Shown here piece by piece: positions 6,152-58,159 of a DNA stretch of 64,000 nt (position 1 is its first letter; each line of letters opens with the position of its first letter). The DNA lies in assembly GCF_004379255.2 (NCBI RefSeq), contig NC_056046.1:1054001-1118000 (forward strand), written 5' to 3'. Source of the stretch: Salvia splendens (taxonomy: Eukaryota > Streptophyta > Magnoliopsida > Lamiales > Lamiaceae). The notes beneath the pieces are model-generated. The model was not told the DNA's origin. It searched no databases and was given only the letters and a program-made list of their open reading frames with translations. Both the position numbers and the translations under genes were made by a program.

Positions 6152-6160
6152 CACTCGCCA

Positions 6161-6178
6161 AAAACCCTAAACCCTAAA
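6161..6178 (-). promoter_or_regulatory. Double telo-box in exportin-T 5' UTR
   Basis: Ten bases upstream of the exportin-T start codon lie two adjacent AAACCCTAA-type telo-boxes (written on the plus strand as aaaaccctaaaccctaaaa). Telo-boxes are common in the 5' regions of plant genes for translation and growth. Here the site is seen directly; its regulatory role is inferred. Confidence 0.45.
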
Positions 6179-27700: not shown

Positions 27701-29104
27701 GGAGGCAAACTTACTCCTATCTGAGCAGACATGAGCAGTAGCGCCGGTGTCGATGTACCAGCTACCCTTGTTATCAACAAGGTTAACTTCTTCAGTGACC
27801 ACAACAATGAGTTCGTTTTCATCCCAGTCTTTGAACTCCTTCTCAACGACGTGGGCCGCCGGCTTCTTCTTCTTGCTGCGGCAGTCCTTGGCAAAGTGGC
27901 CAGTTTTGCCACACTTGAAGCATTGACCTTCAAATTTCTTTGCAGCCTGCTTTCCCTTCCCTTTATCCTTTTGACTTGGGCGATGGCGTTTGGTGGAGGG
28001 ATCGCCCCGCTCCAATAGATTGGATTTGGCTTCAAGTGGGCTAAAGCCCTTAGCCTTTTGGTCACTTTTGCGCACATCAGCCTCAATGCGCAATTTCACG
28101 ATCAAGTCTTCAAGGGTCATCTGCTTTCGCTTGTGTTTGAGATAGCTCTTGAAGTCCTTCCAACTAGGAGGAAACTTGTCAATGATCGTGCACCTTAAGA
28201 ATTTGTCGGGCAAGGTCATCCCTTCAGCCACTAGTGCGTGGATGATCATTTGTAGCTCTTGAACTTGCTCCATGATGGGTCGAGAGTCGACCATCTTGTA
28301 GTCCATAAATTTGGATGCTACAACTTGTTCAGTACCTGCAACATTATCTATGTTATACTTTCTTTCTAGACTTTCCCACATCTCTTTTGATGTGGTTACA
28401 ACGGAGTATACATTGTACAAACTATCATCTAAAGCACTTAGAATGAAATTTTTACAAAGATAATCTCCTTTTCTCAAAGCTTCATAGTCAGCCATGACTT
28501 CGAGCCTAGTCTCTTGATCGCTTGGCGCGGGCGGTTCATTTTCAGTGAGGAAGTTGGCGACGCCAAATGTTGTCAAGTAGAACAACATCTTTTGGTACAA
28601 CCTTTTGAAGTCAGATCCTCCAAACTTTGGTGGCTTCTCGGCAGGTGGCATCATTCTTGGTGCCAAAGGTGCCAAACTTGGTCCATGGAAGGAACCAATT
28701 ACATTGCCCCTGAAGGAGCCAACAACGTGGTTGGGCATAGAGCCCCCACCATTCATGTTGGGCATAGAGCCTGCCATGGTCGTACCAGCCCCGAAGGAAC
28801 TAGCACCCGAGTGAGACCCGAAGGTCCCAGCATTCGTGTGAGACCCGAAGGCCCCCACACTTGATCCATTAAAGGATCCGAAGGAACCACTAAAAGTGGA
28901 ACCAACCGATCCACTCAAGGTGGATCCACCAGTGGGCCCAAGGGGGTTAACAAACTCCCAAGGGGTTGTTGATGAAGATGGATAGAACCTAGGGGTTGGC
29001 ATCATCAAGGGAATCGACGAAGTGTTGACAGGTCCAGTGGTCGCCATGGTGGAGGAAATGGCGGCGGCGGAGGTGGCAGCAGCGGTGTTGGATTCAGTCG
29101 ACAT
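24704..29104 (-). pseudogene. copia gag-pol, interrupted
   Basis: The frame starts at ATG 29104 with a Gly/Ser-rich gag, followed by a zinc knuckle ([14 protein letters not shown]), protease motif [12 protein letters not shown], integrase zinc-binding part ([12 protein letters not shown]...CDICLEAK), integrase core (FIDDCTRY and, further on, [11 protein letters not shown]), reverse transcriptase with YVDDML, and RNase H with YCDANW and ADPLTKGL. In-frame TGA codons occur at 27473-27475, just after the frame end at 27059, and in the integrase SDR-GEY motif; another stop lies near 25950. Frameshifts are visible near 26793 and near 25860. This is a dead copy; the lesions are described only. Confidence 0.88.
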
Positions 29105-29192
29105 CTCCAGCAAAGGTGTTAAATGTTTCGAAAGTGTTAAGTTCAGTTTATAGTCCAAATTCCTTCAAATGCAAGCTATCTTGTCTTGCGAT

Positions 29193-36684: not shown

Positions 36685-38749
36685 TCAATCAACAGCATCG
36701 ATCATTCTTTCAATGCAGTAGAACAAACAAATGAAAAAGTTGCATAATGCACAGTAAAATCCAGGCCGTTCATGTTTATCCCGACGACAAATGTCGCAGC
36801 GGCGTTTTGTAGTGAGAAGTTGAAAGGTGAGAGGGTGTGGATGGGTTTCTGCATTCACATCATATTCCTGCCCCAACTTCATGTTTCTAAACCAGCTGGA
36901 TGTAGTTGGAAAGCAATATGAATGGAAGGATAGATCGCAACTGCGGCAGTGATACATCCATCTCCTGGGATTCATCTGTGTTTCACATTGATCGCAGTAG
37001 AAATCGCCAGGACGGTTGAGAGTGGCGTCGTACGTTAGCAGCAGCGGGTGGTGCTCGTCCCATCTACGGCTGCTGACTGATGCCGGCAGCACAGCGCATC
37101 CAATGTGCACAATGAAATCACATGAGCTGTTGCTGCACCTGTAACAATCATAATTGGCTACTTGTTGGCCACAACCAGCAGCACACAACAAGCGCCGTCG
37201 GTTGATATCCCAGCGTAGATCCGACTGCGTCACATGGTTGAGGAGATGTTGCGGGTGAGCTGCGTGAAGTATGGTATCCGGCATACAAGCGCACTTCATA
37301 TCTACTTTGAATCTGCACTCTCCACAACTGTAAAACAACCCATTCATAGGATACCCACAGACACTGCACGATTCCCGTGACCAAGGTTGAAGTTTGTCAC
37401 CAGATTGGAGGAGTAGGTGGTGATCATCATCATCATGTTTTTGGTGGTGGGGTGAAAGAGAAGAGAGTTGAGGTGGCAAGTGAAAGCAGGCAATGTGAAG
37501 ATTGTATTTGCATTCACTGCAACTCATATAGTAGTAATTTTTACTACTAGTTATAGGAGTGATGCACCCATCACATATCAATTCATATCTCACTCCATAA
37601 TTCTCCTCATCTTCTTCTTCTTGGCTTTGATCATCTAGATGTGAAGATGAGAGTAAAGTGAGTTGATGTTGGTGATGAAGGAATTTATATTTCACATTCA
37701 CCAACTCATCAAAAACAGCAGCAGCAGCAGCAGCAGCAGCAGGGATGATGATGGGTGGTATCAATGTTGTTCCTCCTCTTTGTCTCATCACAAACGGTGT
37801 AATTAGTTCCACGGCCACCTCATTCGTTGGAAGATGGACTATGTCTTTCCCAATGGATGGACTTGCATAAGTAATAGTACCAACAATAATTTAGTAAACA
37901 AAAGGAAGGATGATGTAGTAAGTAATGACATGAATGGTGTAAATATAAATCATACTCAATGACGCGAGGCTTCTTGTTGAAGGCGCATTTGATGTGGACA
38001 ATATATCTGCAGAGAGGACAATGATATATCCAATAGTTGGGTAGAAAAGATATGCTGCATACATCACATTTGTATTGCATTCTGATGTATTCTGGTGGGA
38101 CATGAAAAGAGAGAGTAAGAGAGTGATGATGGTCTTCCCTTTCCATGTTTTGAGGCAATGAAGCACATCTCTCATGGATCCAATACTCGCAATCATCTGC
38201 AGTGCATGTGTAGGAACTCCCTTTGCGTGTGGCGCCACAAGCATCGCACTTGAAGGGACACCTTCTCCTCAACAACTTCAATCCATGGTCAGGATGACTT
38301 GGATGATGACGTATGATGGTGCGCCTTTGCTCATCATCACGGGTTGCTGCATTGATCAGGTGACTGTCATGCGCGCATCTCAGGTGCATCTGGAACCAGC
38401 ATCCTGAGCTTGTACATTTGTAGCCAATGCTCCAAATAGTACTTCCACAGATATCACACCCCCCTAAATCAGGTTCATGGCATTGGATGAGGATGTGTTG
38501 AGGGTGGTGCAATGGACGGCGTATCTCTCTCGCCACCGCTGCGCATTCTTGGTGCAATAGTTTTGTATACTCACACCTGTCGACGCTGCATCCATAAGCT
38601 TGCTCTCCGCTACCAAACCGAACTTCACAACCATAACAATATTCTAAATCACGAGTATCCACCAGAGTAAGGGGATGCTCGTGGCTCCAATGATCAATCA
38701 TCTCCCTCTCATCATCCTCCATCTCTATCTTTTTTTCTTCCTCACTCAT
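36685..38749 (-). CDS. DC1 (C1-like Cys/His-rich) domain protein, intact copy
   Basis: Member of the large plant DC1 family, zinc-binding C1-like proteins; some act in stress, defence or hormone responses, but this gene's role is unknown. Two exons, 38749-37956 and 37861-36685, join in phase (donor GTATGA, acceptor TATGCAAG), giving 656 aa. About nine C1-like modules are visible, each with an HxHP-like start and paired Cys: near residues 24-70 (HEHPLTL...CYGC), 83-126 (HPQHILIQ...CDIC), 150-194 (HPDHGLKL...CDAC), 206-255 (KCDVC...CRYIVHIKC), then five more in exon 2, ending at CALCNFFICLFYC. A run of nine Ala, coded by a GCT/GCA repeat at about 37720-37742, lies early in exon 2. It is the only undamaged member of the array. 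Confidence 0.85.
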
Positions 38750-39307
38750 TATGTATTGTTATGACAAACTATCCTATGTTTCAAACATTTTATAACAGAC
38801 ATATAGCACACACATCAATAAAATCATAGTACAAAACTTCCAACATCAGCAAAGAATAATGTGTCACAATTTCACAACAACAAAGTATTCATTTCACTCA
38901 AAGAATCTTCTTTTACTTTTGCACTGTCTCTCTCTTTTTCTTGAAGCATGTTACTAGATATATATTCTCAAATATAATGTTATGTACTCTACTCTGAGGG
39001 TTTCTCATTTTTTAAAAGCAAAAACTGAATGGTTTACTTTGACTATTGAGTATATAGTTGTTATACATTATTTCAATATGAAAAGAAGAATGTAAAACAA
39101 TCACAACTAAATCAAACAATCACTTTGCTTTTCTAACATCTTTGTATATTTTTTTTCTCTTTATTTTTTCTTTTGCTTTTCTAACATCTTTGTCTTTTGT
39201 TTTTGTCTTTTGCTTTTCACTTTGGATTCAGCTCAAAGATTGTTTTGCATATTTCTTATCATCGCTCATATTTTATAGTACTCCCTCCATCTCATTCAAG
39301 ATGACCA
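38750..39307. other. Upstream DNA of the intact DC1 gene
   Basis: Rich in 'cttttgcttttc' words shared by the other array units. A half Stowaway-type end ('tactccctccatctcattcaagatg') at 39279-39303 abuts the next RING fragment. Confidence 0.5.
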
Positions 39308-41129: not shown

Positions 41130-42863
41130 TCAATCGACGGCCTTCATGTCGCCCGTTCCGATCATATCTTCTCCACAGTTGTTGAGACAAATGAAGAAGT
41201 TGCATGATTCACAGTAAAATCCAGGTCGTTCATGCTTATCCAAACGGCAAATGTTACAGCGGCGTTTTATGGTGAGAAGTTGAAAGGTGAGAGGGTGTTG
41301 GTGGGTTGCGGCACTCACATATTCCTGCCCCAACTTCATGTTTCTATACTCGCCGGATGTAGTTTGAAAGCATATAGGATGAAAGGATAGATCGCAGGTG
41401 CGGCAGTGATACATCCAGCCCTTGGGATTCATTCGTGTTTCGCATTGATCACAGTAGAAGTCACCAGGATGGTTGAGAGTGGCGTCGTACGTCAACAACA
41501 GCTGGTGGCGCCTGTCCCATCTACGGCTGCTGACTGATGCTGGCAACACAACGCATCTAACATGCACGATGAAATCACAAGAGCTGTTGCAACACCTGTA
41601 ACAATCATAATAAGATGCATTCACATCGCAACTAGCACACAAAAAGCGTCTTGAGTTGTCCTTATCTCTGTCTAGGTCATCCTCAGCCACATGATTGAGG
41701 AGATGTTGCGGGTGAGCTTCGTGATGTATGGTATCTGGCATACAAGCGCACTTGATATCTACTTTGAAGCTGCACTCTCCACAACGGTAAAACAACCCAT
41801 TCATACGATACTCACAGACACTGCACATTTCCTGTGTCCAAGGTTGAAGTTTGTCACCAGATTGGAGGAGTAGGTGGTGATCATCATCATCATGTTTTTG
41901 GTGGTGGGGTGAAAGAGAAGAGAGTTGAGGTGGCAAGTGAAAGCAGGCAATGTGAAGATTGTATTTGCATTCACTGCAACTCATATAGTAGTAATTTTTA
42001 CTACTAGTTATAGGAGTGATGCACCCATCACATATCAATTCATATCTCACTCCATAATTCTCCTCATCTTCTTCTTCTTGGCTTTGATCATCTAGATGTG
42101 AAGATGAGAGTAAAGTGAGTTGATGTTGGTGATGAAGGAATTTATATTTCACATTCACCAACTCATCAAAAAACAGCAGCAGCAGCAGCAGCAGGGATGA
42201 TGATGGGTGGTATCAATGTTGTTCCTCCTCTTTGTCTCATCACAAACGGTGTAATTAGCTCCTCGACCATCTCATTCGTTGGAAGATGGACTATGTCTTT
42301 CCCAATGGATGGACTTGCATAAGTAATAGTACAACAATAATTTAGTAAACAGAAGGAAGGATGATGTAGTAAGTAATGACATGAATGGTGTAAATATAAA
42401 TCATACTCAATGACGAGAGGCTTCTTGTTGAAGGCGCACTTGATGTGGACGATATATCTGCAGAGTGGACAATGATATATCCAATAGTTGGGTAGAAAAG
42501 ATATGCTGCATACATCACATTTGTATCGCAATCTGATATATTCTCTTGGGACATGAAAAGAGAGAGAAAGAGAGTGATGATGGTCTTCCCTTTTCAAGTG
42601 TTGAGGCAATGAAGCACATTTTTGATGGATCAAATATTGGCAAGCATCTTTGGTGCATATATAGGAACTCCCTTTGCGTGTGGCACCGCAAGCATCGCAT
42701 TTGAAAGGACACCTTCTCCTCAACAACTTCAAGTCATGGCTGGGGTGACTTGGATGCCGTATGACCGCACGCCTTTGCTCATCAACGTCACGGGTTGCTG
42801 CTGCATCGATCAGGTCACTGTCATGCGCGCATCTCAGGTGCATCTGGAATCCGCATTGTAAGC
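41130..42863 (-). pseudogene. DC1 gene split by the gypsy element, 3' part
   Basis: Carries the second module onward (CGFQMHLRCAHDSDL) to the stop at 41130. The intron corresponding to that of the intact gene is 42404-42312 or so and still has its sites. In the Ala run the copy has one extra T relative to the intact gene (aaaaaac against aaaaac on the plus strand, at about 42164-42170), which shifts the frame before DELVNVKYKF. With the transposon insertion after base 42863 this makes two independent lesions. The 5' part lies at 53826-54170. Confidence 0.85.
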
Positions 42864-43601
42864 TGATGATTGGGCGAATTTTTGATGGTAATAAATGCAG
42901 GTAATAAATATAGATCACGACACCGAAAGTTACGTGGTTCGATTTACTGAGGTAAATCTACGTCCACGGGAAGAAAGGAGGGCAAATTTGTATTGCTTGA
43001 TCTGGATTACAGCTTACAACACTGACTTGCTATATGATATTCGATATCTAGAGAGCTCTCTCGTCTATCTGATCTAAGTTCTATTTATACATGTGAACCA
43101 AGATCGTGGCTTCCAGGTTGACAACAGCTTCATACCACTAAATAGATCGTGGGTGTGGTGGAGGTCGTGGAGGTCCTGCATGGGTCCACTATCCAAGATC
43201 GTGGCTTGCAGGTTGACAACTGCTTCATACCACTAAATAGATCGTGGGTGTAGTGGAGGTCGTGGAGGTCCTGCATGGGTCCACTATCTCCTTGTTCGGT
43301 CGAATACTGAGACCGAACTGCTGAACTTTGCCGATCAGCTTTGGCCGATCTGAGAGTAGAGCTTGATTGGTTCTTTTGCCGATCTGAGAGTAGAGCTTGA
43401 TTGGTTCTTTTGCCGATCTGAGAGTAGAGCTTGATTGGTTGGCTTTTACCGAGCTGTAGGCTGCGACCGAACTCTTTGGTTGTGCCGAACCGAACTGAAC
43501 TCTTTGGTCGTGCCGAACTGATACTCTTTCTTTGGGCTAATGGGCCGTCACTGCTATTGGGCTCGCCATTAGGGTTTAGTTGTTTAGTTCGTACCCCATC
43601 A
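42864..43601 (-). repeat. gypsy 3' LTR
   Basis: 738 bp, begins TGATGATTGG and ends CCCCATCA. It contains two 95-bp tandem units (43098-43287) and three 34-bp units starting at 43345, 43379 and 43413. Confidence 0.95.
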
Positions 43602-43617
43602 CTACCCCCCCCAAAAA
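43602..43617 (-). other. gypsy polypurine tract
   Basis: Read on the minus strand as TTTTTGGGGGGGGTAG directly before the 3' LTR, the expected place for the plus-strand primer. This fixes the element's orientation. Confidence 0.8.
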
Positions 43618-43922
43618 GCGAAGTGAATCACTTCGGCATTTTGGATGAGTGTAAGGGGGAGGCTGACGTCAGGGGACGTGCCATGCGCGTGTCTGCATTA
43701 AATGCGATAGCAAATCCGGCCGTTGAATCCAGAAAAAGGGGGATTTGAAACGGCGCTACGGATTTGAAAGGCCTCTGTGAATCTGATAAATATTACCATT
43801 TTCCATCATTGGAACACTTTTGCTATTGTTTCTTCTGCATTCTCTCTCTTTTGCGCAAAATTTCCTTCCGCTCCTTCAAGAATTTCTTCAGAACTTCTTC
43901 AGACTTTCAAAGAGTAAGAATC

Positions 43923-46829
43923 ATGTCTTCTTCTTCTTCTTCTGAGTCAGGTAGCGGTAGGAAAGGGGGTAAGGGATCTTCTAGCCGGAAAGAGTCCGGG
44001 GAGAAGACCGTAGAATACTTTCACAGCATCTTGAGTAAGGACACTGTGATATCCCTACACGGAAAATATCTTCTTCCCGGGGGGAAGGTGGTGATTCCCG
44101 ACGACGATCATAGGGCTAACTCGCCGCCGGAGGGTTATGCCACCGTTTACGAAGCCTGCTTAGAATGCGGGCTTCGTTTCCCTCTTCCCCCACCTTTTGT
44201 AGAGCTTCTTGATTTTTTCCAACTCCCTTTAGGTCAGGTGACTCCGAATTCTTGGAGGCACTTATCGGCCTTTGCTGCCGAACTGCGTAGGCTAGATAAG
44301 GATCTGTCTCTGAGGGCAATCCTTAATTTCTTCCAGTTTAAGAGGAAGGGATCTTGGTTTTACTTGATCCCTTTACAGCCCTTTAGAGCCTTTTGTAAAA
44401 CCAAATGGCCGAAATGGCAAAATCGCTTCTTTTTTTACAATAGGACAGCGGCTCCGGGCTTTCCCTGGAGAGGGCCGAAGTCCGTAATTCCTCATCCTCG
44501 GTTAGAACCGTTGAACGAGCTCGAGGGCGAGCTCAATAAGATTCCTATGATTAGGACGCAGTACTTGGAGTCTGAGCTCGTCAAGGGCAACTTCGTGTTC
44601 GACTCCTCGTCTTCGGACGACGAGACTGAGGGTGAGGATTTCTTTTTTATGCACTACTACCTTGACGACGAAAACTAACCTTGTTTTCTTGCTTTTTGGC
44701 AGTGAACTTGCTAAACAAGCTCGGTCACAAATCCTCCGAATCTAAGGAACCGGAGAGGCCGAAAACCACCAGCTCGGCGTCTGATGCCGAGAAGAATCCG
44801 AAGAGGCAAAAGACCTCTTCGGATCCAAAGAAGCCGGAGTCGACTTCGGCAAATAGGAAGGCGAAGCTTCAGAAGCCCCCAAGAGCGCCAGAGAAAGACG
44901 TGGTCTTGGCGCCTCCTTCGGAACATATCTGTGAGCCCTTTTTATGGCCCACGGACTTCGCCGAGGTGAATTCTCTTCTTGATTTTCTGGCCTTGCTTTT
45001 TTCCTGTATTTTTTGTGGCCCCTCGGTTGACTTTTTCCTTTTTCCATTTTCAGAGGAACGATATGCTCAGCAAGCTCGTCGCAGTTGAACTCTCTAAAGC
45101 GTCCAGCGACTATGCTGAGATGCAGAGGAAGTTGACTGCTGCTCGTCACCAGGCCGAACAGGCTAGGGCAGACTTTGAGAAGGCAAGGGCTGCTAGGATC
45201 TCGGCTCAGGATGAGGCACAGCGGGCAAAAAACGAGCTTATTATCCAGAGAGAGCAGTCGAAACAGAGGGAGGCTGCTGCCGTGGTTGCCCAAGGGGAGG
45301 CTCTCCGTGCTTTCGCGGAGAAACTCTTTTTGAGCAATCAATTTTCGGCCTTTGTCGGTGATCTGCTGAAACTGATGACCGATAATGCTGAGCAGGGACC
45401 CGAAGTCGTCCTGCTGCTGTATGGCCGAGAAATTGCAGCTCGTCTCCAGAGTCTGCCGCTCCTTGACGAGCTCGCGTCTTCCTCGGTCCTGCTTTCTGCT
45501 GACCGAGTCCGTAATTGCCGAGCTGACCGGGACGAGAACATGGAGGCCATCTTTGCCTCCTTGGGACCTGTTTCACCCGCTCCAATTTTCCAAGGAGAGG
45601 GTGAGCAGGAAAACGAGGCCGGCAAGGAGACCGAGCAGCCGGATCGGCAGACCGGCGACGGGCAGGCCGAGCAGGAGGTGCAGCAGATCGGCTATGGGGG
45701 CGCCGAGCAGGCTGGGGGGAGTAGGGAGGCTGAGGCTGAAGCCGAGGTGGACAAGGAGGGAGAAGCTGAAACCCGGAGGGGAGCCGGAGATGAAACTGGC
45801 GGAGTATGATTTCGTCTCCCTTCTCTTAGTTTAGTTTCTTTCTTCCTTCTTGTAAAATGGCCTTGAAGCCCTCCTTATGTAAAAATTTTTTTTCTTATGA
45901 ATGAAAAAATTTTCTTTCTACACTCGTGTCTTCGTATAGCTTTTCTTGACCTCTTTTACTCCTGTTATGGTTTACTGCCTGCTCGGTAAGCTGAAATGCC
46001 GAACTGACCTAGCTGCTTTGTATTCTTTAACTCTAAGGAGCTGGAGGTACTTCACTGGAAGCGGCTATACTCTTCGGCTTTAAACGAAGCTGAGAAAAAA
46101 GCCATAGAGGACCAGATGAAGTATGACGAACTCTTGGCTCGTTCAGTGGAGCTGGAGTCCGACAATAAGGACTTAGGGTCCATAAGGAAGGATCTGGAGG
46201 CCGAGCTGGATATTGTCGTCGCTGAGAGGACTGCATATGAGGATTTCATCTGCGGACGCGGGGGAATGAGCATATCTGAAGTTCAGAATCAAGTTGATGA
46301 ACTGTGGGAGGAGCTTCATGTACTCCGGAGGAACAATGCGCTGGAGAGCTCGGCTTGCCAACAAGTTGTGAAATCATTGCGGCGCTGGGCTTCTCGATAC
46401 GACATCATTCTTTCCCGGCGTCCTTCAATCGAGAGATTCCTTAGGTATTTCCCGCCAACAGATGCTCACACTCCAGCTCAAACCTCTGATCCACTTGCTC
46501 AAAATCCTACTCCAAATCAGCAACGAACTCAGGAGCAACCGGAAACGTCAAGACGAGAACGGACTCAGGAGCAACCGGAAACGTCAAGACAAGGACGGAC
46601 TGAAGTTCGTAGAGGAGCTGTGATTATGAGTGAGCAAGATCAACAAATGCTTCGTGAAGAGACTCTTCGCCGCCGAGGTGCCAGAACTTCCCGGACTCAG
46701 GGAAGAGGCGGTAGATCGATCAGAGCAGCTCGTCCACCTACTTATTCTTCAACTGCTCGGAACGCCCGAACTCAGCATCATGAGGATTTTTCGGATAGGT
46801 GGCTCAACTTTAGCAACCGTGGACAGTAG
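43923..46829 (+). CDS. Antisense spliced gene carried by the gypsy element
   Basis: Lies opposite to gag-pol, between pol and the 3' LTR. Four exons can be built: 43923-44631, 44703-44965, 45054-45803 and 46038-46829, with introns GTGAGG...GGCAG, GTGAAT...TTCAG and GTATGA...TAAG. All junctions keep phase (1, 0, 0), giving 837 aa. The ATG at 43923 follows a leader and starts a Ser-rich stretch. Residues about 60-200 (EACLECGLRFPLPPPFVELL, PNSWRHLSAF) resemble the 'putative gypsy type transposon' domain known from extra ORFs of Tat elements. The middle is Lys/Ser/Pro-rich, exon 3 is a predicted coiled coil followed by a Gly/Glu-rich run, and exon 4 ends in a basic Arg-rich tail. A polyadenylation signal AATAAA is at 46896-46901. 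Function unknown. Confidence 0.7.
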
Positions 46830-46895
46830 AATAGTCCTTTGTAATAGCGTAACGCCTTCTCGTAGGGCAACGGAGTTGTATGCCGAACAAGACTT

Positions 46896-46901
46896 AATAA
46901 A
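46896..46901 (+). terminator. Polyadenylation signal of the antisense gene
   Basis: AATAAA 67 bp after the antisense stop codon, in the right orientation and before the minisatellite array. Confidence 0.5.
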
Positions 46902-46971
46902 TGAAATTTTTTTCATTTCGCTTCTATCACTGCGTACTTACAGTTCAGCGATTTTTTATTTCATTTACTGT

Positions 46972-47166
46972 ACTCGTCCTCGGTCTTATGAAGTAAACTT
47001 CTTTGACCGGACTCGTCCTCGGTCTTATGAAGTAAACTTCTTTGACCGGACTCGTCTTTGGTCTTATGAAGTGAACTTCTTTGACCGGACTCGTCTTTGG
47101 TCTTATGAAGTAAACTTCTTTGACCGGACTCGTCTTTGGTCTTATGAAGTAAACTTCTTTGACCGG
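46972..47166. repeat. 5 x 39-bp tandem repeat
   Basis: Units start at 46972, 47011, 47050, 47089 and 47128 with no length variation and few substitutions; each contains 'ggtcttatgaagtaaacttc'. It lies between the antisense gene and the end of pol. Confidence 0.95.
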
Positions 47167-47177
47167 ACTTGGTTTGT

Positions 47178-47312
47178 GTCCTAATTTGGCGAGTTTTATC
47201 GCTCAGATCGGACTTTCCCTTTGTCCTAATTTGGCGAGTTTTATCGCTCGGATCGGACTTTCCCTTTGTCCTAATTTGGCGAGTTTTATCGCTCGGATCG
47301 GACTTTCCCTTT
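47178..47312. repeat. 3 x 45-bp tandem repeat
   Basis: Units start at 47178, 47223 and 47268, each opening 'gtcctaatttggcgagtttt'. Unrelated in sequence to the 39-bp array next to it. Confidence 0.95.
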
Positions 47313-47631
47313 TTGCAGTTCGTTTCAGACGAACTGCTTGTTTCTTAAGCTGAATTGTGGAGTCTTGTATCTTCCTGAGAAGCTTGGACTCACAATTGTC
47401 TTTAATACATGTTCTAAAAAGGGGATCAGCCTTTAAAGAACAAGATACCTCAGTAACATTTGTAAGAGACGACACGCACATAGAGAGACAACGCAGATAA
47501 AGACAAATAAAAAAGACGAAAAAGGTTTTAAACTTTTATAAAACGACAAGCATGAAAAACAAGTAAAAAACAAAGAAAGCACATACCCCTAGGACCGAAC
47601 TAGACACAAGACTGACTGACCGGACTGTCTC

Positions 47632-50600
47632 TTACAAATGGAACTTCTTGAGGTTGGAAATGTGCCATGTTCGGGGTACTTGTTCTCCTGACATGTGAGT
47701 CAATTTATAAGACCCTTTGCCGAGGACTTCTGACACCCGATATGGACCTTCCCATGTGGGTTCGAGTTTGCCCAGCTTTTCTGCTCGGCTTACTTCATTG
47801 TTTCTCAAGACGAGATCTCCCACTTGAAATTGCAGCTTTTTCACCCTTTGGTTATAATACCGGGCTACTTGCTCCTTGTACTTGGCTGCTTTTATGCAGG
47901 CCAATTCTCTTCTTTCTTCGGCAAGATCTAGTTCGGCTCTCAGTCCGTCCTCATTCAGTTCTGCTGAGAAATTAAGAGTTCGGGGACTGGGTATGCCGAT
48001 CTCAACCGGAATCACGGCTTCAGTGCCGTACACCAGACTGTATGGAGTTTCACCGTTTGAGGTTTTTGGTGTAGTTCGGTAAGACCATAGGACTTGAGGA
48101 AGATTTTCTACCCATTGTCCTTTGGCTTGTTCTAACCGAGCTTTTAACCCTTTCACCAGAATACGGTTTGTTACTTCCGTTTGTCCGTTTGCTTGTGGGT
48201 GAGAGACCGAAGTGAACCGCTGTTGAATATTCAGCTCTTGGCACCAATTCTTGAATGTCCTGTCGGTGAACTGAGTCCCATTATCCGAAATGAGGATATG
48301 GGGTATGCCAAATCGGCAAACTATGTTCTTCCAGACAAAATCCAATGCCTTCGAGCTCGTTATCGTAGCTAATGGTTCAGCCTCCACCCACTTCGTGAAG
48401 TAATCCACGGCAACGATAAGGAATTTCATTTGCCGAGGAGCTTGTGGTAGTGGTCCTACTATGTCTATGCCCCATTGCATAAAAGGCTAAGGGCTTTGCA
48501 TAGCACATAGATCGGTCTGCGGCATCCTTGGGATATTTGCATGGATTTGGCACTTCGTACATGTCTTGACGAGCTGCACTGCTTCTTGTACCAAAGTTGG
48601 CCAATAATATCCCCATCTCAGAACTTTTTTAGCTAAAGCTCTAGCTCCGATGTGGCTACCGCAAGATCCTTCATGAACTTCTCTAAGGATGTAGTCCGTC
48701 TCTTCTGGTCCTACACATCGCAATAACGGTTGAAGGTAGGACTTTCTGTATAGGACTCCTTCATGAAGTTCATACCGAAGTGCTCGGCATGTGATTTTCC
48801 GAGCTTCTCTCTTATCCTCGGGCAGTTGTCCTTGATCTAGATACTGTAAGATCGGCGTCATCCAGTTCGGCGAGCTGGTTACTGAATGTACCTCAGCTTC
48901 ATCAATGCTTCGGTGTAGTAATTCCTCCACCTTTGAGCTCGGATATGAGGCCAACTTACTTAAAGTATCTGCTCGGCTGTTTTCCGCTCTGGGAATGCGG
49001 ATTATCCGAAAATAAGAGAAACTTCGGCTAATGCTTTGCGCTTTGTCCAAGTATTTTTTCATCCTCTCATCTCGGGCTTCACTTGTACCCAGCATGTGAT
49101 TCACTATGACTTGTGAATCACAATGGATTTTGAGAGATTTGACAAATAGACTTTGCGCTAATTGAAGTCCGGCAAGGAGGGCTTCGTATTCGGCTTCGTT
49201 ATTAGTAGTTGGGAATAAGAACCGAAGTGAATAAGTTACCTCGTGTCCGTCGGGAGCGATAAGTAGAATACCAGCTCCACTTCCCGTCTTATTCGAAGCT
49301 CCATCTACGAATCCACTCCAGCAGTCCGGCGGTTCTACTTCGGATTCCTGGGGCTGTGTTAGTTCGTCATTGGCAGGATTTTTCTGTTCGGCAATAACAG
49401 GGATTGCTTGATCGAACTTTGCCTCTGCAAGAAAATCTGCCAAGGCTTGTCCCTTGATGGCTTTCCGAGGTAGATATTCTATTGAGTGTTCTCCCAGCTC
49501 TATGGCCCACTTGGCAATTCTGCCTGACGCTTCAGGCTTAGTCAAAACTTGCCGAAGTGGAAGATCGGTTAAGACGCATACCTTGTGAGCATAGAAATAT
49601 GGCCGCAGTCTCCTTGCTGCATTTACTAATGCCAGAGCAATTTTTTCCAGAGGTTGATACCTTGTTTCTGGACCTCTTAATGCTCGGCTTGTAAAGTAGA
49701 TGGGAAGCTGCTTTAGGCCTTCTTCTCGCACAAGCACCGCGCTAATGGTTTGATCTGATGCCGCTAAGTATAAGAATATCACTTCGGCATCTGTTGGAGC
49801 AGAGAGAATAGGAAGCTCGGCTAAATAACTTTTGAGCTCGTCAAAAGCCTTTTTCTGCTCGACTCTCCACTCAAACTTTGGTGCCTTCTTCAACACATTG
49901 AAGAACGGCATTTGCTTTTCGGCTGCTTGGGAAAGGAATCTATTCAGTGCGGCTAGACATCCAGTTAGCCTTTGCACATCATGTATGGACTTCGGCGTTG
50001 CCATGTTCTGAACAACTTGAACTTTTAGCGGATTTGCCTCGAGTCCTTCCTTTGAAACCCAACAACCTAGAAACTTTCCCGAATCTACCAAAAAGGTACA
50101 TTTTTGGGGATTGAGTTTGAGGTTGGCTTTTCGGAGCACGTCGAGAGTGGACTTGAGATTGTCTTCGTACTCCGAAGTGCTTCTGCTTTTAACGACTATG
50201 TCGTCAACATACACTTCAACCTCTTTTCCGATTAGGTGCCGAAATAGCTTGTCAACCATCCTTTGATATGTGGCTCCGGCATTCTTTAAACCGAATGGCA
50301 TCTTTTTGTAAGCAAAAATGCCGAAGTCAATAATGAAAGCCGTTTTTGAAGCATCACTCTTATCCATTAAAACTTGGTGATATCCTTTGTATAAATCAAG
50401 AAAACAAAAAATTTCGAAGCCTATCAAAGCTTCTACTTTTTTATCTATGTTCGGAAGGGGATAGCAATCTTTAGGACAGTGCTTGTTTAGATCGGTAAAA
50501 TCTATGCACATCCGCCATCCTCCCTCTTTTTTCTTGATCATCACAGGGTTGGCCACCCAAGAAGGATATTTCACTTCAAATAACACATCCGCTTTTAGTA

Positions 50601-50928
50601 ATTGGCGGACTTCGTCATGAATGACTTGACTTCTTTCTGCCGCAAAGAGTCTTTGCTTCTGTTTTATAGGCCGGACTGAAGGATCAATATTTAACCGATG
50701 TGTAATTACCTCGGGGGGCACTCCGGTCATGTCCAACGGCGACCACGCAAAGACGTCTTTGTACTCTTTGAGGAGCTGGATGGTCTTTTCCCGGAGTAGA
50801 GGTGTTCCCGCGAAACCGATCTTCACCGTTCTGGATGGATCATCTTCATATAACTGAACTTCCATCGAGTTCGGCTCTGGTGTGACTTCGGTCATTTCGC
50901 CTGCCTCTGACTCCGGCTGCTGTGATTG
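47632..50928 (-). CDS. pol: gypsy pol: RT, RNase H, archaeal-type RNase H, integrase (one stop)
   Basis: In frame with gag-pro and separated from it only by the UAG at 50929-50931; the first ATG is at 50895. Counted from that ATG, the reverse transcriptase has FLDLY near residue 165-169 and YVDD at 229-232. The Ty3-type RNase H follows (YFTSRALRGPETRYQ), then a second, archaeal-type RNase H (FVDGASNKTGSGAG), typical of Tat elements. The integrase zinc-binding region (HEGSCGSHIG, CTKCQIH) and core (GPLPQAPRQM, DYFTKWVEAE, SDNGTQF, QANGQTE) come last, with no chromodomain. A TAG at 48487-48489 interrupts the frame between zinc-binding and core parts of the integrase; the frame is otherwise open to 47632. 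Confidence 0.92.
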
Positions 50929-53007
50929 CTATGCTTGATGGTGCCGATCTGATTGCTCGGCACTTTTAAGCGCAATCTGCAAACACTCTTTTGCTCTCTT
51001 TTGATCACCTCGGATGACCGCTATCCCTCCTTTAGTGGGGATCTTGATGGTGAGGTGATAAGTAGAGCAAATGGCCCGAACTGTGTTGAGCCAGTCTCTT
51101 CCCAGTATAATGTTGTACGGGGACCGAGCTTTTACCACAAAGAACTCGATCATCGTACTGGAGCTTGTAGGCGCTCTTCCCACCGTAATCGGAAGGCTGA
51201 TAATACCTTCAGGGCGGGTGTCCTCCTGGGCGAAACTTTTCAGAGGAAGCGGAGCCGGACTGAGCCGAGCTGGATCCACTTCCAGTTTATCGAAACATTC
51301 TTTAAAAAGAATGCTAACTGACGCTCCTGTATCCACGAACACTCTGTGGATCAGTTTGTTTGCCACTCCGGCTTGAATGACAATGGCGTCTTGATGAGGA
51401 GAGATGGCCGGGACGGGATCGGCATCTGAAAATGTAATCACTTCGTCCTGCTTCAGCCTTTTATGCGTTGGCTCCTCTCGATTGAAGCCTCTGCGCTCTG
51501 ACTTCAGGGACGATTTAGTCTTCCCGGCTGGGAGAGCGTCAATAGTCTGGATTACTCCATCATATTGCGGCTCGTCATCGTTTTCGGGATCCTGTTGCCT
51601 TTTCGTATCCTGAGGAGCATAGTTCGTACCTCTCTGCTTCTTGTTCTTTTTCGGCTGCTTGCTTTGGTATTTTTTTAACGTCCCTGTTTTCACAAGAACA
51701 TCAATACCTGCAGCCAAATGTCGGCACTCCTCGGTATCGTGACCGTGGTCTTGATGGAAGGAGCAATAATTATCCTGACTTCGGCGCGCGGCCGATTTCG
51801 TCATCCGCTTTGGCTTTTCGAACATATCGGAATGCAGTTCGAAAATTTCCGCTCTCGACTTGTTCAATGGTACGAACTGAGCGGGCGGTTTCTCAAGATC
51901 GAGACGTGGTCCCAATCTGCCTTGTACCGGTGCCCTTTGAATTCTTTCAAAAGGAGTTCGGCGAGGAAGCCTCTGATCGCTATGATCGGGCTTCTTTTTG
52001 TCTCCTCTAGATGAGCTGTCTAAAGACCGTTTTCGACGGTCTGCCTCATCGGCACGAGAAAACTGGTCCGCAATGTCCCACATCTCTTGAGCTGTTTGCG
52101 GACTGCATTCAACGAGCTTCCTGTAGAGAGCTCCTGGCAGTATTCCATTTTGGAATGCCGAAATGACAAGTAGATCATTGAGATCATCTACTTGTAGGCA
52201 TTCCTTGTGGAACCTCGTCATGAAGTCGCTAATTTTTTCATCGCGACCTTGACGTATAGAAAGCAGCTGAGCCGAAGTGATTCGGGCTTCCGCTTTCTGG
52301 AAGAATCTCCTATGAAAAGCATCCATTAGATCTCTGTAAGATCTAATGCTGCCTTGAGGGAGGCTATCAAACCACCTCCTTGCGTTCCCGATGAGCAGCT
52401 CGGGAAACAGCTTACACATGTGAACCTCATTGAGACCTTGGTTCGCCATATTATACTGATAGCGTCCCAAGAAATCATGAGGATCCACTAACCCGTCATA
52501 AGTCATTGACGGAGTTCGGTAATTCTGCGGCAACGGAGTTCGGGTGATATCATCCGAGAATGGAGTCTTCAGCGCTCCATACATGGCGAACCCGACATCT
52601 CTTCGGTATGGTGGAGATGGAGTTCTCCTGTGGTTCCGGTAACGAGGAGGAAGAGGAACATGTCGGTGGTGAGGATTCTTTCTCCGGGGAGATGCGACAC
52701 TACTGCGGTAGTGACTTTCATGTCTGGATGGAGAGGGAGAATCCGCCGTTTTCGTCTCCGGCTTTTGGCCTGTTTGCAGGAATGTTAAGAATTCATCCTG
52801 CTTCTCGGCCAAAAACAACTTGACAGCCTCGTTCAAATCGGGCTGCTGGGAAGACTCGGTGCGACGACTTCTGGAGTGGCTTGTTCCTTCACCGTGAGAA
52901 CTGGAGACAGATTTCTCACGAGGCTGTTTTCCAGACCTACGGGCTGGACTAGCTTCCTCATGGTTATCACGGACGGAAGCACGGGTATTATGTGATCTGG
53001 TATGCAT
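50929..53007 (-). CDS. gag: gypsy gag-protease
   Basis: 692 codons from ATG 53007, the structural protein plus aspartic protease of the retroelement. After a basic, Ser-rich N-terminus the capsid-like Retrotrans_gag region is clear (KLFPELLIGNARRWFDSLP, MDAFHRRFF, GRDEKISDFMTRFHKE). No CCHC knuckle follows; a CSFHQDHGHDTEECRHL segment supplies another Cys/His cluster. The protease has its catalytic Asp559 in VFVDTGAS and NIILGRDWL further on. The frame is intact and ends in UAG followed by CAAUCA, then continues open into pol. Confidence 0.92.
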   Translation of the reverse strand: MHTRSHNTRASVRDNHEEASPARRSGKQPREKSVSSSHGEGTSHSRSRRTESSQQPDLNEAVKLFLAEKQDEFLTFLQTGQKPETKTADSPSPSRHESHYRSSVASPRRKNPHHRHVPLPPRYRNHRRTPSPPYRRDVGFAMYGALKTPFSDDITRTPLPQNYRTPSMTYDGLVDPHDFLGRYQYNMANQGLNEVHMCKLFPELLIGNARRWFDSLPQGSIRSYRDLMDAFHRRFFQKAEARITSAQLLSIRQGRDEKISDFMTRFHKECLQVDDLNDLLVISAFQNGILPGALYRKLVECSPQTAQEMWDIADQFSRADEADRRKRSLDSSSRGDKKKPDHSDQRLPRRTPFERIQRAPVQGRLGPRLDLEKPPAQFVPLNKSRAEIFELHSDMFEKPKRMTKSAARRSQDNYCSFHQDHGHDTEECRHLAAGIDVLVKTGTLKKYQSKQPKKNKKQRGTNYAPQDTKRQQDPENDDEPQYDGVIQTIDALPAGKTKSSLKSERRGFNREEPTHKRLKQDEVITFSDADPVPAISPHQDAIVIQAGVANKLIHRVFVDTGASVSILFKECFDKLEVDPARLSPAPLPLKSFAQEDTRPEGIISLPITVGRAPTSSSTMIEFFVVKARSPYNIILGRDWLNTVRAICSTYHLTIKIPTKGGIAVIRGDQKRAKECLQIALKSAEQSDRHHQA

Positions 53008-53064
53008 TTTTTTGGTGGAAGAGGATCAAAAACTCGCTTTTATCACAGATTTGGTTCTCTGGTT

Positions 53065-53080
53065 CCCACAGACGGCGCCA
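53065..53080 (-). other. gypsy primer-binding site
   Basis: One base after the 5' LTR the minus strand reads TGGCGCCGTCTGTGGG. The first nine bases match the complement of a tRNA 3' end of the ...ACGGCGCCA type (as in plant tRNA-Asp); the rest diverges. Primer identity is inferred. Confidence 0.7.
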
Positions 53081-53081
53081 G

Positions 53082-53825
53082 TGATGATTGGGCGAATTTT
53101 TGATGGTAATAAATGCAGGTAATAAATATAGATCACGACACCGAAAGTTACGTGGTTCGATTTACTGAGGTAAATCTACGTCCACGGGAAGAAAGGAGGG
53201 CAAATTTGTATTGCTTGATCTGGATTACAGCTTACAACACTGACTTGCTATATGATATTCGATATCTAGAGAGCTCTCTCGTCTATCTGATCTAAGTTCT
53301 ATTTATACATGTGAACCAAGATCGTGGCTTCCAGGTTGACAACAGCTTCATACCACTAAATAGATCGTGGGTGTGGTGGAGGTCGTGGAGGTCCTGCATG
53401 GGTCCACTATCCAAGATCGTGGCTTGCAGGTTGACAACTGCTTCATACCACTAAATAGATCGTGGGTGTAGTGGAGGTCGTGGAGGTCCTGCATGGGTCC
53501 ACTATCTCCTTGTTCGGTCGAATACTGAGACCGAACTGCTGAACTTTGCCGATCAGCTTTGGCCGATCTGAGAGTAGAGCTTGATTGGTTCTTTTGTCGA
53601 TCTGAGAGTAGAGCTTGATTGGTTCTTTTGCCGATCTGAGAGTAGAGCTTGATTGGTTGGCTTTTACCGAGCTGTAGGCTGCGACCGAACTCTTTGGTTG
53701 TGCCGAACCGAACTGAACTCTTTGGTCGTGCCGAACTGATACTCTTTCTTGGGTTTTGGGCTAATGGGCCGTCACTGCTATTGGGCTCGCCATTAGGGTT
53801 TAGTTGTTTAGTTCGTACCCCATCA
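53082..53825 (-). repeat. gypsy 5' LTR
   Basis: 744 bp, near-identical to the other LTR, with the same 95-bp and 34-bp internal repeats. It starts where the split DC1 gene is interrupted. Confidence 0.95.
53299..53307 (-). promoter_or_regulatory. TATA box of gypsy 5' LTR
   Basis: TATAAATAG on the minus strand, correctly placed to start transcription inside the LTR toward gag. The 3' LTR has the same site at 43081-43089, from which transcription would read into the 3' part of the DC1 gene. Confidence 0.65.
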
Positions 53826-54170
53826 TAAGCATATGTAGCCAATGCTCCAAATAACCCTTTCACAGATATCACACCGCATTAAATCTGGTTCGTGCCATTG
53901 GATGAGTATGTGCTGAGGGTGGTGCAATGGATGCCGTATCTCTCTCGCCATGGCTGCACATTCTGGGTGCAATAGTTTTGAATACTCACACCCGTCGATG
54001 CTGCATCGATAAGCTTGCTCTCCGCTACCAAACCGCACTTCGCAACCGTAACAGAATTCTAATTCACGAGTATCCACCAAAGTAAGTGGATGCTCATGGC
54101 TCCAATGATCAATCATCTCTGTTTTTTCCCACTCCTCCTCCATCTCTATCTTTTTTTCTTTCTCACTCAT
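53826..54170 (-). pseudogene. DC1 gene split by the gypsy element, 5' part
   Basis: Starts at ATG 54170 (MSEKEKKIEMEEEWEK) and runs through the first module (HEHPLTLVDTRELEF, CYGC) and most of the second (HPQHILIQWHEPDL, CDIC) to the target duplication, after which the frame enters the LTR. The 3' part is at 41130-42863, 10.96 kb away. Confidence 0.88.
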
Positions 54171-55299: not shown

Positions 55300-56980
55300 T
55301 CATGTCACCATTATCATTTTTGGACCGCAGCTGTAGAGACAAATGAAGAAGTTGCATAATGCACAGTAAAATCCTTCCCATTCATATCTTTTATAACGAC
55401 AAATGTCGCAGCGGCGCTTTGTGGTGAGAAGTTGAAAGGTGAGACGGTGTGGATGGGTTTCTGCATTCACATCATATTCCTGCCCCAACTTCTTGTTTCT
55501 ATACTCGCCTGATGTAGTTGGAAAGCAATCTGGATGGAAGGATATATCGCAGGCGCGGCAGTGATACATCCAACTCCTGGGATTCATTTGTGTTTCGCAT
55601 TGATCGCAGTAGAAATCGCCAGGACGGTTGAGAGTGGCGTCGTACGTCAACAGCAGCTGGTGGTGCTTGTCCCATCTACGGCTGCTGACCGATACAGGCA
55701 GCAAAGCGCATCAGACGTGCACAATGAAATCACATGAACTATTGCAGCACCTGTAACAATCATAATAGGCTATGTCTATGCCACAACCAGCAGCACACGA
55801 CAAGCGCCGTCGGTTAATATCCCTGTATAGATCCGACTGAGTCACATACTTTAGGAGATGTCGCGGGTGAGCTGCTTGGTGTATGGTATCCGGCATACAA
55901 GCGCATTGGATATCGACTTTGAAGCCGCACTTTGTACAAGTGTAAAACAGCCCATTCATAGGATACTCACACACACTGCACATTTTCCCCTCCCAAGGTC
56001 GAAGTTTGTCGCAAGATCGGAGGTCCAGTGAGTGATGATAATCGTGGTGGTGGAGTGGAACAGAGTGGAGGCGAGGTGGCAAGTGAAAGCAAGCCATGTG
56101 AAGATTGTATTTGCATTCACTGCAACTCATGTAGTAGTAGTAGTAGTAGTAGTAACATTTACTACTTGATGAAGATATAGGAGTGATGCACCCATCACAT
56201 ATCAATTCCGATCTCACTCCATAATTTTCCTCGTCTTCTTCTTCTCCTAGGATTTGAGGGTGTTGAGATGTGGATGAGACTAAAGTGAGCTCATGTTGGT
56301 GATGAAGGAACTTATATTTCACATTCACCAACTCATCATCATTATTAGGTTGTATGATGATGGGTGGCATGAATGTTGTTCCTCCATTTTCTCTCATCAC
56401 GAAAGGTGTAATTAGCTCCTCAGCCACCTCATTTGTTGGAAAATGGATCATGTCCTTCCCAATATCTCTGGTGCACATAAAAACACATGTCAATATGACT
56501 AAGGATAATCTAACAAGTAATGAGATGACATGAATGGCTAGGATGGCGTATGATGGTGCGCCTTTGCACATCAACGTCTGCATCGATCAGGTCACTGTCA
56601 TGCGCGCATCTCAGGTGCATCTGGAACCCGCATCCTGAGCTTCTACATCTGTAACCAATGCTCCAAATAATCCTTTCACAGATACCACACTTCCAAAAAT
56701 CTGTTTTGTGTCGTTGGATGAGTATGTGCTGAGGGTGGTGCAGTGGACGCCGTATCTCTCTCGCCAACGCTGCACATTCTTGGTGCAATAGTTTTGAATA
56801 CTCACACCCGTCGATGCTGCATCCATAAGCTTGCTCTCCGCTACCAAACTGAACTTCACAACCATAACAGTATTCTAATTTACGAGTATCCACCAAAGGA
56901 AGTGGATGCTCGTGGCTCCAATGATCAATCATCTCCCTCTCATCCTCCTCCATCTCTATCTTTTTTTCTTTCTCACTCAT
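55300..56980 (-). pseudogene. DC1 gene copy with internal deletion and nonsense codon
   Basis: Starts at ATG 56980 with the same two N-terminal modules as the intact copy, then after RRTIIRHPSHS about 400 bp are missing: the third and fourth modules, the exon 1 donor and the start of the intron. The frame stops soon after at about 56510. Exon 2 resumes near 56468 (IGKDMIHFPTNE) and is open to a TGA at 55711-55713, at the position where the sister copies have an Arg or Gly codon (IVHV-stop-CALLP), and continues open to 55300. The Ala run is absent; a Tyr run (YYYYYYYYM) coded by tag/tac repeats is present at about 56130-56155. Confidence 0.82.
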
Positions 56981-58159
56981 TATGTGTTGTTTACTAATTC
57001 CAGAAAAAATATACTGACAAACTATTCAATCTTTCAAACATTTTATAGCAGATATATAGCACAGAATAATGTATCACAACAAAAAAAGCATTTCACTTAA
57101 AGAATCTACTTTTTCTTTGGTACTGTCTTTCTCTTTTTCATGTAATTATCTTTTAGTGATGAGACTAATTATATTCTCAATTATTATGTATTCTGCTTTA
57201 AGGATTTATCTTTTTAAAAGCACAAACTGTATGGTTCAGCTTGATTTTTGAGTATATAGATATCTAATCACAATACGGAAAAAGAATGTACTGTAATACA
57301 ATCACAACTTAATCGAACAATCACTTTGCTTTTCTAACATCTTTGTCTTTCTTTTTTCTTTATCTTTGTTTTTTGTCTTCTGCTTTTCTTACATCTTTGT
57401 CTTTTGTTCTTCACTTTATCTTTGTTTTTCTCACAGTTTGTTTTGTCTTTTGCTTTTCTCTTTGGATTCAGCTCGCATTTCTTACTTCAATGAAAAGTCC
57501 TAGGTGTTGGATAAGGCATCATTGCTCATATTTTTTGTAGTAATAAATTGTGGTATAATTTTTAGGCAAACAATTATAAGAATACCTTGTATTATAGGAG
57601 TACTATATAATGTCTGTATATTAATACTCTATTAATAGCTTGGACTTTAGATTGGTGACTATTTAACGTGTATCTAGGGTTTTGTAATCAGTGAATCCTC
57701 GATGATCTGATCCATACATGAGATTTAGACTATTTCAACTAGTTAGGATGTCATTAATTTGCGACTTCGGCTAGCCACCATATTGTCTTCTTCCTCTCCG
57801 ATGCGAACTCTCATCGTATGGTTCAACTACTAGTCTAAGACTATATGCTATATATATCAAAAATCTTCAATCTCACAATTTAAAATTCCAATAAAATGAT
57901 AGATTAAAAAAAGACTAAAAACTCACTGTTCACACAGATCAGTAAGACTGCTTCTTTGCGTTTACCTGCTATTTAATTGCTCATTTCCAACTGCTTAATT
58001 TGTGCTGAGGTAGAATCAAAACGTCATCAACCCCTATTGACATTCCTTACTAGCTATGTCATGTGTTGGTTAGATAAAGATTCTCTCTCACACATGTGGG
58101 ATATTTGGAAGCTCTTAAATGTCTTCGATATTTAACTAATCAAACTGCCTAGACACATA
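56981..58159. other. Right end of the array and flank
   Basis: 56981-57530 resembles the upstream DNA of the other DC1 copies, ending 'ggataaggcatcattgctca'. 57540-58159 shows no recognisable gene; a poorly defined MITE-like block may lie at 57690-57850. Confidence 0.4.

Follow-up and report, generated by a model that had tools for sequence, protein, structure and literature searches.

Antisense open reading frames (ORFs) that encode the TRP28 domain are a known hallmark of Retand retrotransposons (Vicient 2025, PMC11963269). A gene of this kind is described here in a long terminal repeat (LTR) retrotransposon of Salvia splendens, located in a stretch of 64,000 nucleotides (contig NC_056046.1 of assembly GCF_004379255.2, positions 1,054,001 to 1,118,000) that is hereafter called the window, with all positions counted from its first letter. 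Like the Retand ORFs, this gene is antisense, lies between pol and the 3′ LTR, carries the TRP28 domain, and has tandem repeats nearby. The Retand ORFs were predicted with ORF Finder, and the word "intron" is used 0 times in the survey, whereas here a single gene appears to extend over four exons. A sequence-only reading of the window had stated that extra antisense ORFs are known in Tat elements, which agrees with the standard presence of antisense TRP28 genes in Retand (PMC11963269). It had also called a complete multi-intron gene unusual; this holds for the introns but not for the antisense gene itself.

Grande elements also contain an antisense accessory gene, gene23, which is reported to possess a promoter of its own and whose product is reported to be nuclear (PMC7264820). 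The gene of S. splendens resembles it in being antisense, accessory and preceded by a candidate promoter of its own, in the form of a TATA-like box. It differs in that a nuclear product and promoter activity are reported for gene23, whereas here the counterparts are a KRQK/KKQK motif and that box, both read from the sequence. The spliced antisense genes of deltaretroviruses, such as HBZ, lie near the 3′ LTR as well (PMC10186651). HBZ gives spliced and unspliced RNAs and a nuclear regulatory protein, features that the present gene may share. In contrast, HBZ starts in the 3′ LTR, encodes an unrelated protein and has two forms that differ only at the N-terminal end, while here the TATA-like box is not part of the LTR and the coding frame is interrupted by three introns. 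An intron is also known from a Tat-clade element; the introns described here are antisense and invisible to the genomic RNA.

The article on gene23 states that spliced antisense transcripts should be sought (PMC7264820). Among the titles and abstract openings listed by literature searches, none describes a plant LTR element with an antisense gene that is spliced or contains introns, and an earlier description may exist. What appears to be new is the multi-exon structure of an otherwise known Retand antisense TRP28 gene. Surveys of single ORFs would miss or fragment such a gene. Should the split structure be general, only pieces of the accessory protein have so far been described, in a lineage of plant retrotransposons that is abundant.

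A probable four-exon antisense gene in a Retand element

The gene is probably the accessory antisense TRP28 gene of a Retand element, split into four coding exons and spliced. Joined in phase at GT-AG sites, the four exons (Table 1) encode a protein of 837 amino acids. The exon and junction coordinates, the splice sites of the three introns, the phase and the protein length given by the sequence-only reading were reproduced to the base, and the AATAAA that it had placed shortly past the stop codon was located. The search for PF04195 that it had suggested retrieved the domain at amino acids 75 to 119, with an E value of 2.1e-10 and a score of 41.1 bits against a cut-off of 26.2 in the Pfam scan. 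The three longest stop-free stretches of the region total 2,409 nt, and the maximum in 1,000 dinucleotide shuffles was 1,521. The T content is 41, 53, and 44% in the three introns and 28, 17, 18, and 21% in the four exons.

The position of the gene, antisense inside a Tat-type element and between pol and the 3′ LTR, was likewise borne out and can be narrowed to the Retand type. The element is assigned to the Retand lineage (Tat clade, Ty3/gypsy) from its domains and sizes. This placement follows from a second RNase H between the RNase H (RH) and the integrase (INT), together with the antisense Transposase_28 gene between pol and the 3′ LTR. In the Pfam scan, the second RNase H (RVT_3, amino acids 541 to 659) lies between RT_RNaseH (384 to 479) and Integrase_H2C2 (741 to 796); an additional RNase H at this place is common to Ogre and Retand (PMC6317226). 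The LTRs of 738 and 744 bp and the region of about 4.0 kb between pol and the 3′ LTR (47631 down to 43602) fall within the sizes given for Retand, which are 315 to 1,194 bp and 2,933 to 6,566 bp, respectively (PMC11963269). An extra ORF with PF10536, the plant mobile domain, is present in 57% of Ogre elements (PMC6317226), and this domain was not among the Pfam matches with E values up to 1 in five translated frames of the element.

Selection on the spliced reading frame

The conservation of the gene was analyzed in genomic copies. A search of the host genome (806-Mb assembly) with exon 1 gave 3,117 first-look candidates, of which the 150 best-scored matches have identities of 93 to 100%; 60 copies were fetched from these 150, so that the sample leans toward copies with a good exon 1. 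The codon tests were made on 55 copies plus the window (56 sequences). Left out were L009, L017, and L053, which cease to resemble the window within exon 3 or intron 2, L063, which carries a deletion, and L035, where similarity ends at 46837 and one frameshift is present. In a scan of the same genome for PF04195, 150 of 2,742 first-look candidates were scored, and the 150 listed all exceed the cut-off, while no match to this domain was found in 14 control genomes.

The coding frame is conserved across all exons. The ratio of nonsynonymous to synonymous change (Ka/Ks) is 0.22 to 0.35 for the whole gene in ten pairs of sequences. By exon, it is 0.13 to 0.26 in exon 1, 0.13 to 0.34 in exon 2 for nine of the ten pairs, 0.18 to 0.42 in exon 3, and 0.32 to 0.74 in exon 4. 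Shared polymorphism shows an excess at third codon positions in every exon (P = 1e-6, 0.034, 5e-7, and 0.004 for exons 1 to 4), with no such excess in the other two phases. The sequence-only reading had named decay of the exon frames at the pace of noncoding DNA as the outcome that would speak against it; such decay is not observed, given the whole-gene Ka/Ks and a third-position excess confined to the predicted phase. For scale, the Ka/Ks of the region of reverse transcriptase (RT) and RH is 0.07, 0.12, and 0.13 in the three usable pairs (ten were requested and five computed, of which two, with L057, are spurious because L057 lacks RT-RH at this place). Constraint thus acts on the antisense gene, though less than on RT.

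Length changes follow the same pattern. Among those common to at least two copies, four in exons are multiples of 3 and two are not, and these two (1 and 8 nt) co-occur in the same eight copies, where they sum to 9; in introns, 4 are multiples of 3 and 15 are not. The complete frame is present in 34 of 56 sequences, and in 20 of the 24 that are less than 97% identical to the window. Taken singly, the frames of exons 1 to 4 are open in 54, 55, 46, and 49 of the 56 sequences, and an AATAAA occurs somewhere between 46860 and 46920 in 41.

Splice sites and persistence of the introns

We infer from the sequence that the antisense gene is spliced. The GT-AG dinucleotides of all three introns are kept in 55 of the 56 sequences, and in 55 of all 60 fetched copies. 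Their retention was considered as proof of splicing and dropped after a control with other GT and AG dinucleotides (see below), being consistent with splicing and no more.

In the genome, 1,639 boundaries of exon 2 with intron 2 were found with up to 3 mismatches, and this positive control contrasts with zero exon 2-exon 3 junctions at the same threshold. The argument of the sequence-only reading, that antisense introns stay through retrotransposition, fits these counts. The introns would survive since it is the opposite strand that is packaged as genomic RNA, and there they do not read as splice sites. Being antisense, the gene would offer a clear-cut case of introns that the life cycle of the retrotransposon itself cannot remove. 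One candidate for a copy lacking intron 2, L063, was rejected, as it carries a 462-bp deletion running through exon 2, intron 2, and exon 3.

Intron 2 is one of the gene's less variable parts, with 11% of its sites polymorphic in more than one sequence; the figure is 25% for intron 1 and 22% for intron 3. This could perhaps be due to gene conversion or to a regulatory role.

Intron 3, exon 4, and alternative readings

Several observations weigh against a spliced four-exon gene. Of the other GT and AG dinucleotides, 210 of 343 across the gene and 15 of 23 inside the introns are kept as well as those at the splice sites. No spliced retrocopy was found in the genome, either for junction 1 (searched with the sequence of the window itself, allowing up to 3 mismatches, so that diverged subfamilies may escape) or for junction 2, which is nearly invariant among the copies; a region that is never spliced would give the same result. 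If intron 3, which begins with GTATGA, is retained, the frame stops directly after exon 3 in 56 of 56 sequences, giving 576 amino acids. In exon 2, one close pair has a Ka/Ks of 2.07 on eight changes. The codon-position test gives P = 0.16 for the part of exon 4 before its first ATG alone, which at 78 nt is too short for significance, and P = 0.22 for the end of exon 3 alone. The frame is broken in 22 of 56 sequences, and length changes of exons seen in a single copy ignore the frame (3 are multiples of 3, and 12 are not), which is the pattern expected if inserted copies decay. Identity to the window varies among segments of one copy (in L020, 98% in exon 1 and 89% in exon 2); some copies are therefore probably mosaics, and the pairs compared are not independent. 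Finally, searches of the protein collection gave no homologue of the spliced protein (7,992 candidates scored) or of the exon 1 product (314 candidates). In the same collection, pol matches 4,006 proteins, the best listed with 53% identity, from Coffea. The antisense protein thus either changes too quickly to be caught by a word-based search or has relatives that the collection lacks.

The stop codon at the start of intron 3 allows a different division of the region, with a three-exon gene ending at this TGA, its 3′ end within "intron 3," and exon 4 on a transcript of its own. Besides the invariant TGA, this division draws on the first 78 nt of intron 3, where fewer sites vary than in the rest (9 of 78 versus 43 of 156; P = 0.007) and which leave room for a second, shorter product ending there. 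It also draws on TGTAAA (56 of 56 sequences) and AATGAA (52 of 56) within the intron, and on the Retand survey, which counts 104 antisense ORFs in 63 clusters (PMC11963269). What speaks against it is exon 4, which is under selection and yet has no start codon common to the copies. The first ATG of exon 4 is missing from 12 of 56 sequences, and 55 of 56 lack an in-frame ATG from the acceptor up to the first upstream stop. Ordinary translation would therefore seem to reach exon 4 only through a junction with exon 3. In addition, the listed variants retain the acceptor AAG|GAG despite variation in the preceding bases, nine of which are lacking in 7 of 56 sequences, and exon 3 continues into exon 4 in frame at GT-AG sites. 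The length of intron 3 falls in all three classes modulo 3 (22, 26, and 8 of 56 sequences). On balance, two separate units are unlikely.

The same facts, together with the open frame across the junction of exons 3 and 4 in 34 of 56 sequences, would also suit a gene that makes both forms, the 837-amino-acid protein when intron 3 is removed and the 576-amino-acid protein when the transcript ends within intron 3 by alternative polyadenylation. This is a variant of the four-exon gene rather than an exclusive alternative. It is a real but minority possibility, since AATAAA occurs in intron 3 in none of the 56 sequences, and a 5′ splice site alone would hold part of the first 9 nt constant.

The chain of exons could in principle be an artefact, produced by chance or by the composition of a stretch rich in GC, with an antisense strand that is noncoding or acts as antisense RNA only. 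The minus strand of the same region does contain long stop-free frames, of 276 and 194 amino acids, and antisense RNA itself could regulate the element, as discussed in PMC7264820. These minus-strand frames, however, are open in only 21 and 26 of 56 sequences, less than half. Selection at the codon level is confined to the predicted phase, shared length changes keep the frame, and the match to PF04195 has the E value given above. As a sole explanation, an artefact is already disfavored and most improbable; an additional role of the RNA is possible.

Copies without RT-RH

For 20 copies, the stretch from 4.3 to 7.4 kb from exon 1 was fetched. RT-RH was matched there in 12 copies (one of them partly) and gave no match in 8, in which the gag side is so close to the antisense gene that a full RT-RH cannot fit. 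Two distinct deletion structures are seen directly. In L054, one deletion leads from the integrase (48035) to the protease/RT side (50862) and another from 51041 to 51951, the joint of the second being found also in L057 and L059; in L065, a single deletion leads from 48029 to 51482. The deletion ends of L042, L060, and L068 lie outside the fetched stretch, and that of L051 lies within its last bases.

These copies retain the N-terminal part of gag (Ka/Ks of 0.15 to 0.36 among six of them, 15 pairs) and also the antisense gene (0.13 to 0.41 in the same pairs). In L057, this part of gag contains a stop, and in L060 and L068 it is truncated where the fetched stretch ends. Recently active Retand clusters without GAG, or without RH and INT, have been described to keep TRP28 (PMC11963269). 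The pattern fits an arrangement in which RT and integrase can be borrowed from other elements, while gag and the antisense product work better when they come from the same element. Action in cis thereby becomes a testable question.

Predicted product and its possible role

The basic motif KRQK/KKQK of exon 2 is present in 34 of 34 intact frames. Motifs of this kind mark nuclear import. A heptad-like, coiled-coil-like stretch spans approximately amino acids 320 to 390. The structure predicted for the exon 1 product alone has a mean predicted local distance difference test score (pLDDT) of 37.6 and is not usable. DNA binding has been predicted for TRP28 (PMC11963269).

In the mechanism proposed, transcription by RNA polymerase II would begin at a TATA-type promoter that belongs to the gene and is located between the 3′ LTR and the ATG. 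Three short T-rich introns would then be taken out by the host spliceosome, and the mRNA would be polyadenylated beyond 46829. The 837-amino-acid product, with its TRP28 domain, basic motif, and coiled-coil-like parts, would most likely enter the nucleus and oligomerize. There, in keeping with the literature on TRP28, it may bind DNA or RNA of the element and regulate its expression or one of the nuclear steps of its cycle. The ATAAATA box, the precedent of gene23, the basic motif with the heptad-like stretch, and the DNA binding predicted for TRP28 favor a nuclear regulator of the element; we hold its nuclear character with moderate confidence and any precise step with low confidence.

A more far-reaching proposal is that the Retand accessory gene is multi-exonic, with a switch at intron 3 (837 versus 576 amino acids), that it acts mainly on its own element, and that the several antisense ORFs per Retand element reported elsewhere are exons of one gene. 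Derivatives without RT-RH would then keep gag and the antisense gene under selection because of this action on the encoding element. As a whole, this proposal is put forward tentatively.

Structure and surroundings of the element

The element occupies 42864 to 53825 on the minus strand, with the antisense gene on the plus strand (Table 1). Its coding order is gag-protease, RT-RH-second RH, and integrase. The two LTRs are 99% identical, with one mismatch and one gap in 744 aligned positions. The TATA-like box is identical in 56 of 56 sequences. A second, longer type of repeat, seen by eye, follows the 39-bp repeats, and the repeats together span 46921 to 47310.

TABLE 1 Positions of the antisense gene and of the element that carries it
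Feature	Positions	Strand	Remarks
Target-site duplication TAAGC, left	42859..42863	.
3′ LTR (TGATG...CATCA)	42864..43601	-	738 bp
Presumed polypurine tract	43602..43618	-	adjoins 3′ LTR; identified by eye
TATA-like box ATAAATA	43786..43792	+	outside LTR, 131 bp before start codon
Exon 1	43923..44631	+	begins with ATG; encodes PF04195 (Transposase_28)
Intron 1	44632..44702	+	71 nt, GT-AG; branch-like CTAAC about 24 nt before AG
Exon 2	44703..44965	+	KRQK/KKQK nuclear-localization-like motif
Intron 2	44966..45053	+	88 nt, 53% T, GT-AG
Exon 3	45054..45803	+	heptad-like, coiled-coil-like stretch, then acidic low-complexity part
Intron 3	45804..46037	+	234 nt, GT-AG; branch-like CTGAC/CTAAT; if retained, frame ends at TGA 45807-45809
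Exon 4 and stop codon	46038..46829	+	
AATAAA	46896..46901	+	starts 67 nt past stop
39-bp tandem repeat array	46921..47222	.	between antisense gene and pol
Integrase frame (rve)	47632..48486	-	divided from RT-RH frame by stop 48487-48489
RT, RNase H, second RNase H (RVT_3), integrase zinc-binding frame	48487..50928	-	
Gag and protease frame	50929..53025	-	ends in TAG (50931-50929), then CAA TCA
5′ LTR	53082..53825	-	744 bp
Target-site duplication TAAGC, right	53826..53830	.

The in-frame stop between the RT-RH and integrase frames is carried by the window copy and by none of the 12 other copies with letters at this place, and 3 of the 16 aligned sequences have a gap there. Thus, the pol of the window copy is broken while its antisense gene is intact. 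At the end of gag-protease, the TAG and the in-frame CAA TCA that follows (50920 to 50937) fit CARYYA, a readthrough motif of plant viruses (PMC3542737). This TAG is present in 12 of 16 aligned sequences, including the window. The four without an aligned TAG, as judged from match lists, are L010, whose match starts past it, and L054, L057, and L059, which have no RT-RH and align poorly. Pol may be produced by readthrough of this stop codon.

No related locus was confirmed in viral contigs. The element sits inside a cluster of repeated genes (36685 to 38758, 41130 to 42957, and 55711 to 57025). Two scanned frames of this cluster (36688 to 37890 and 41133 to 42212) contain C1/DC1 domains, and the other cluster genes are similar at the DNA level. 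Further frames in the window belong to a Copia-type element (24704 to 29164), an exportin-T (4367 to 6166), and an HD/RelA-SpoT-type protein (17595 to 18923).
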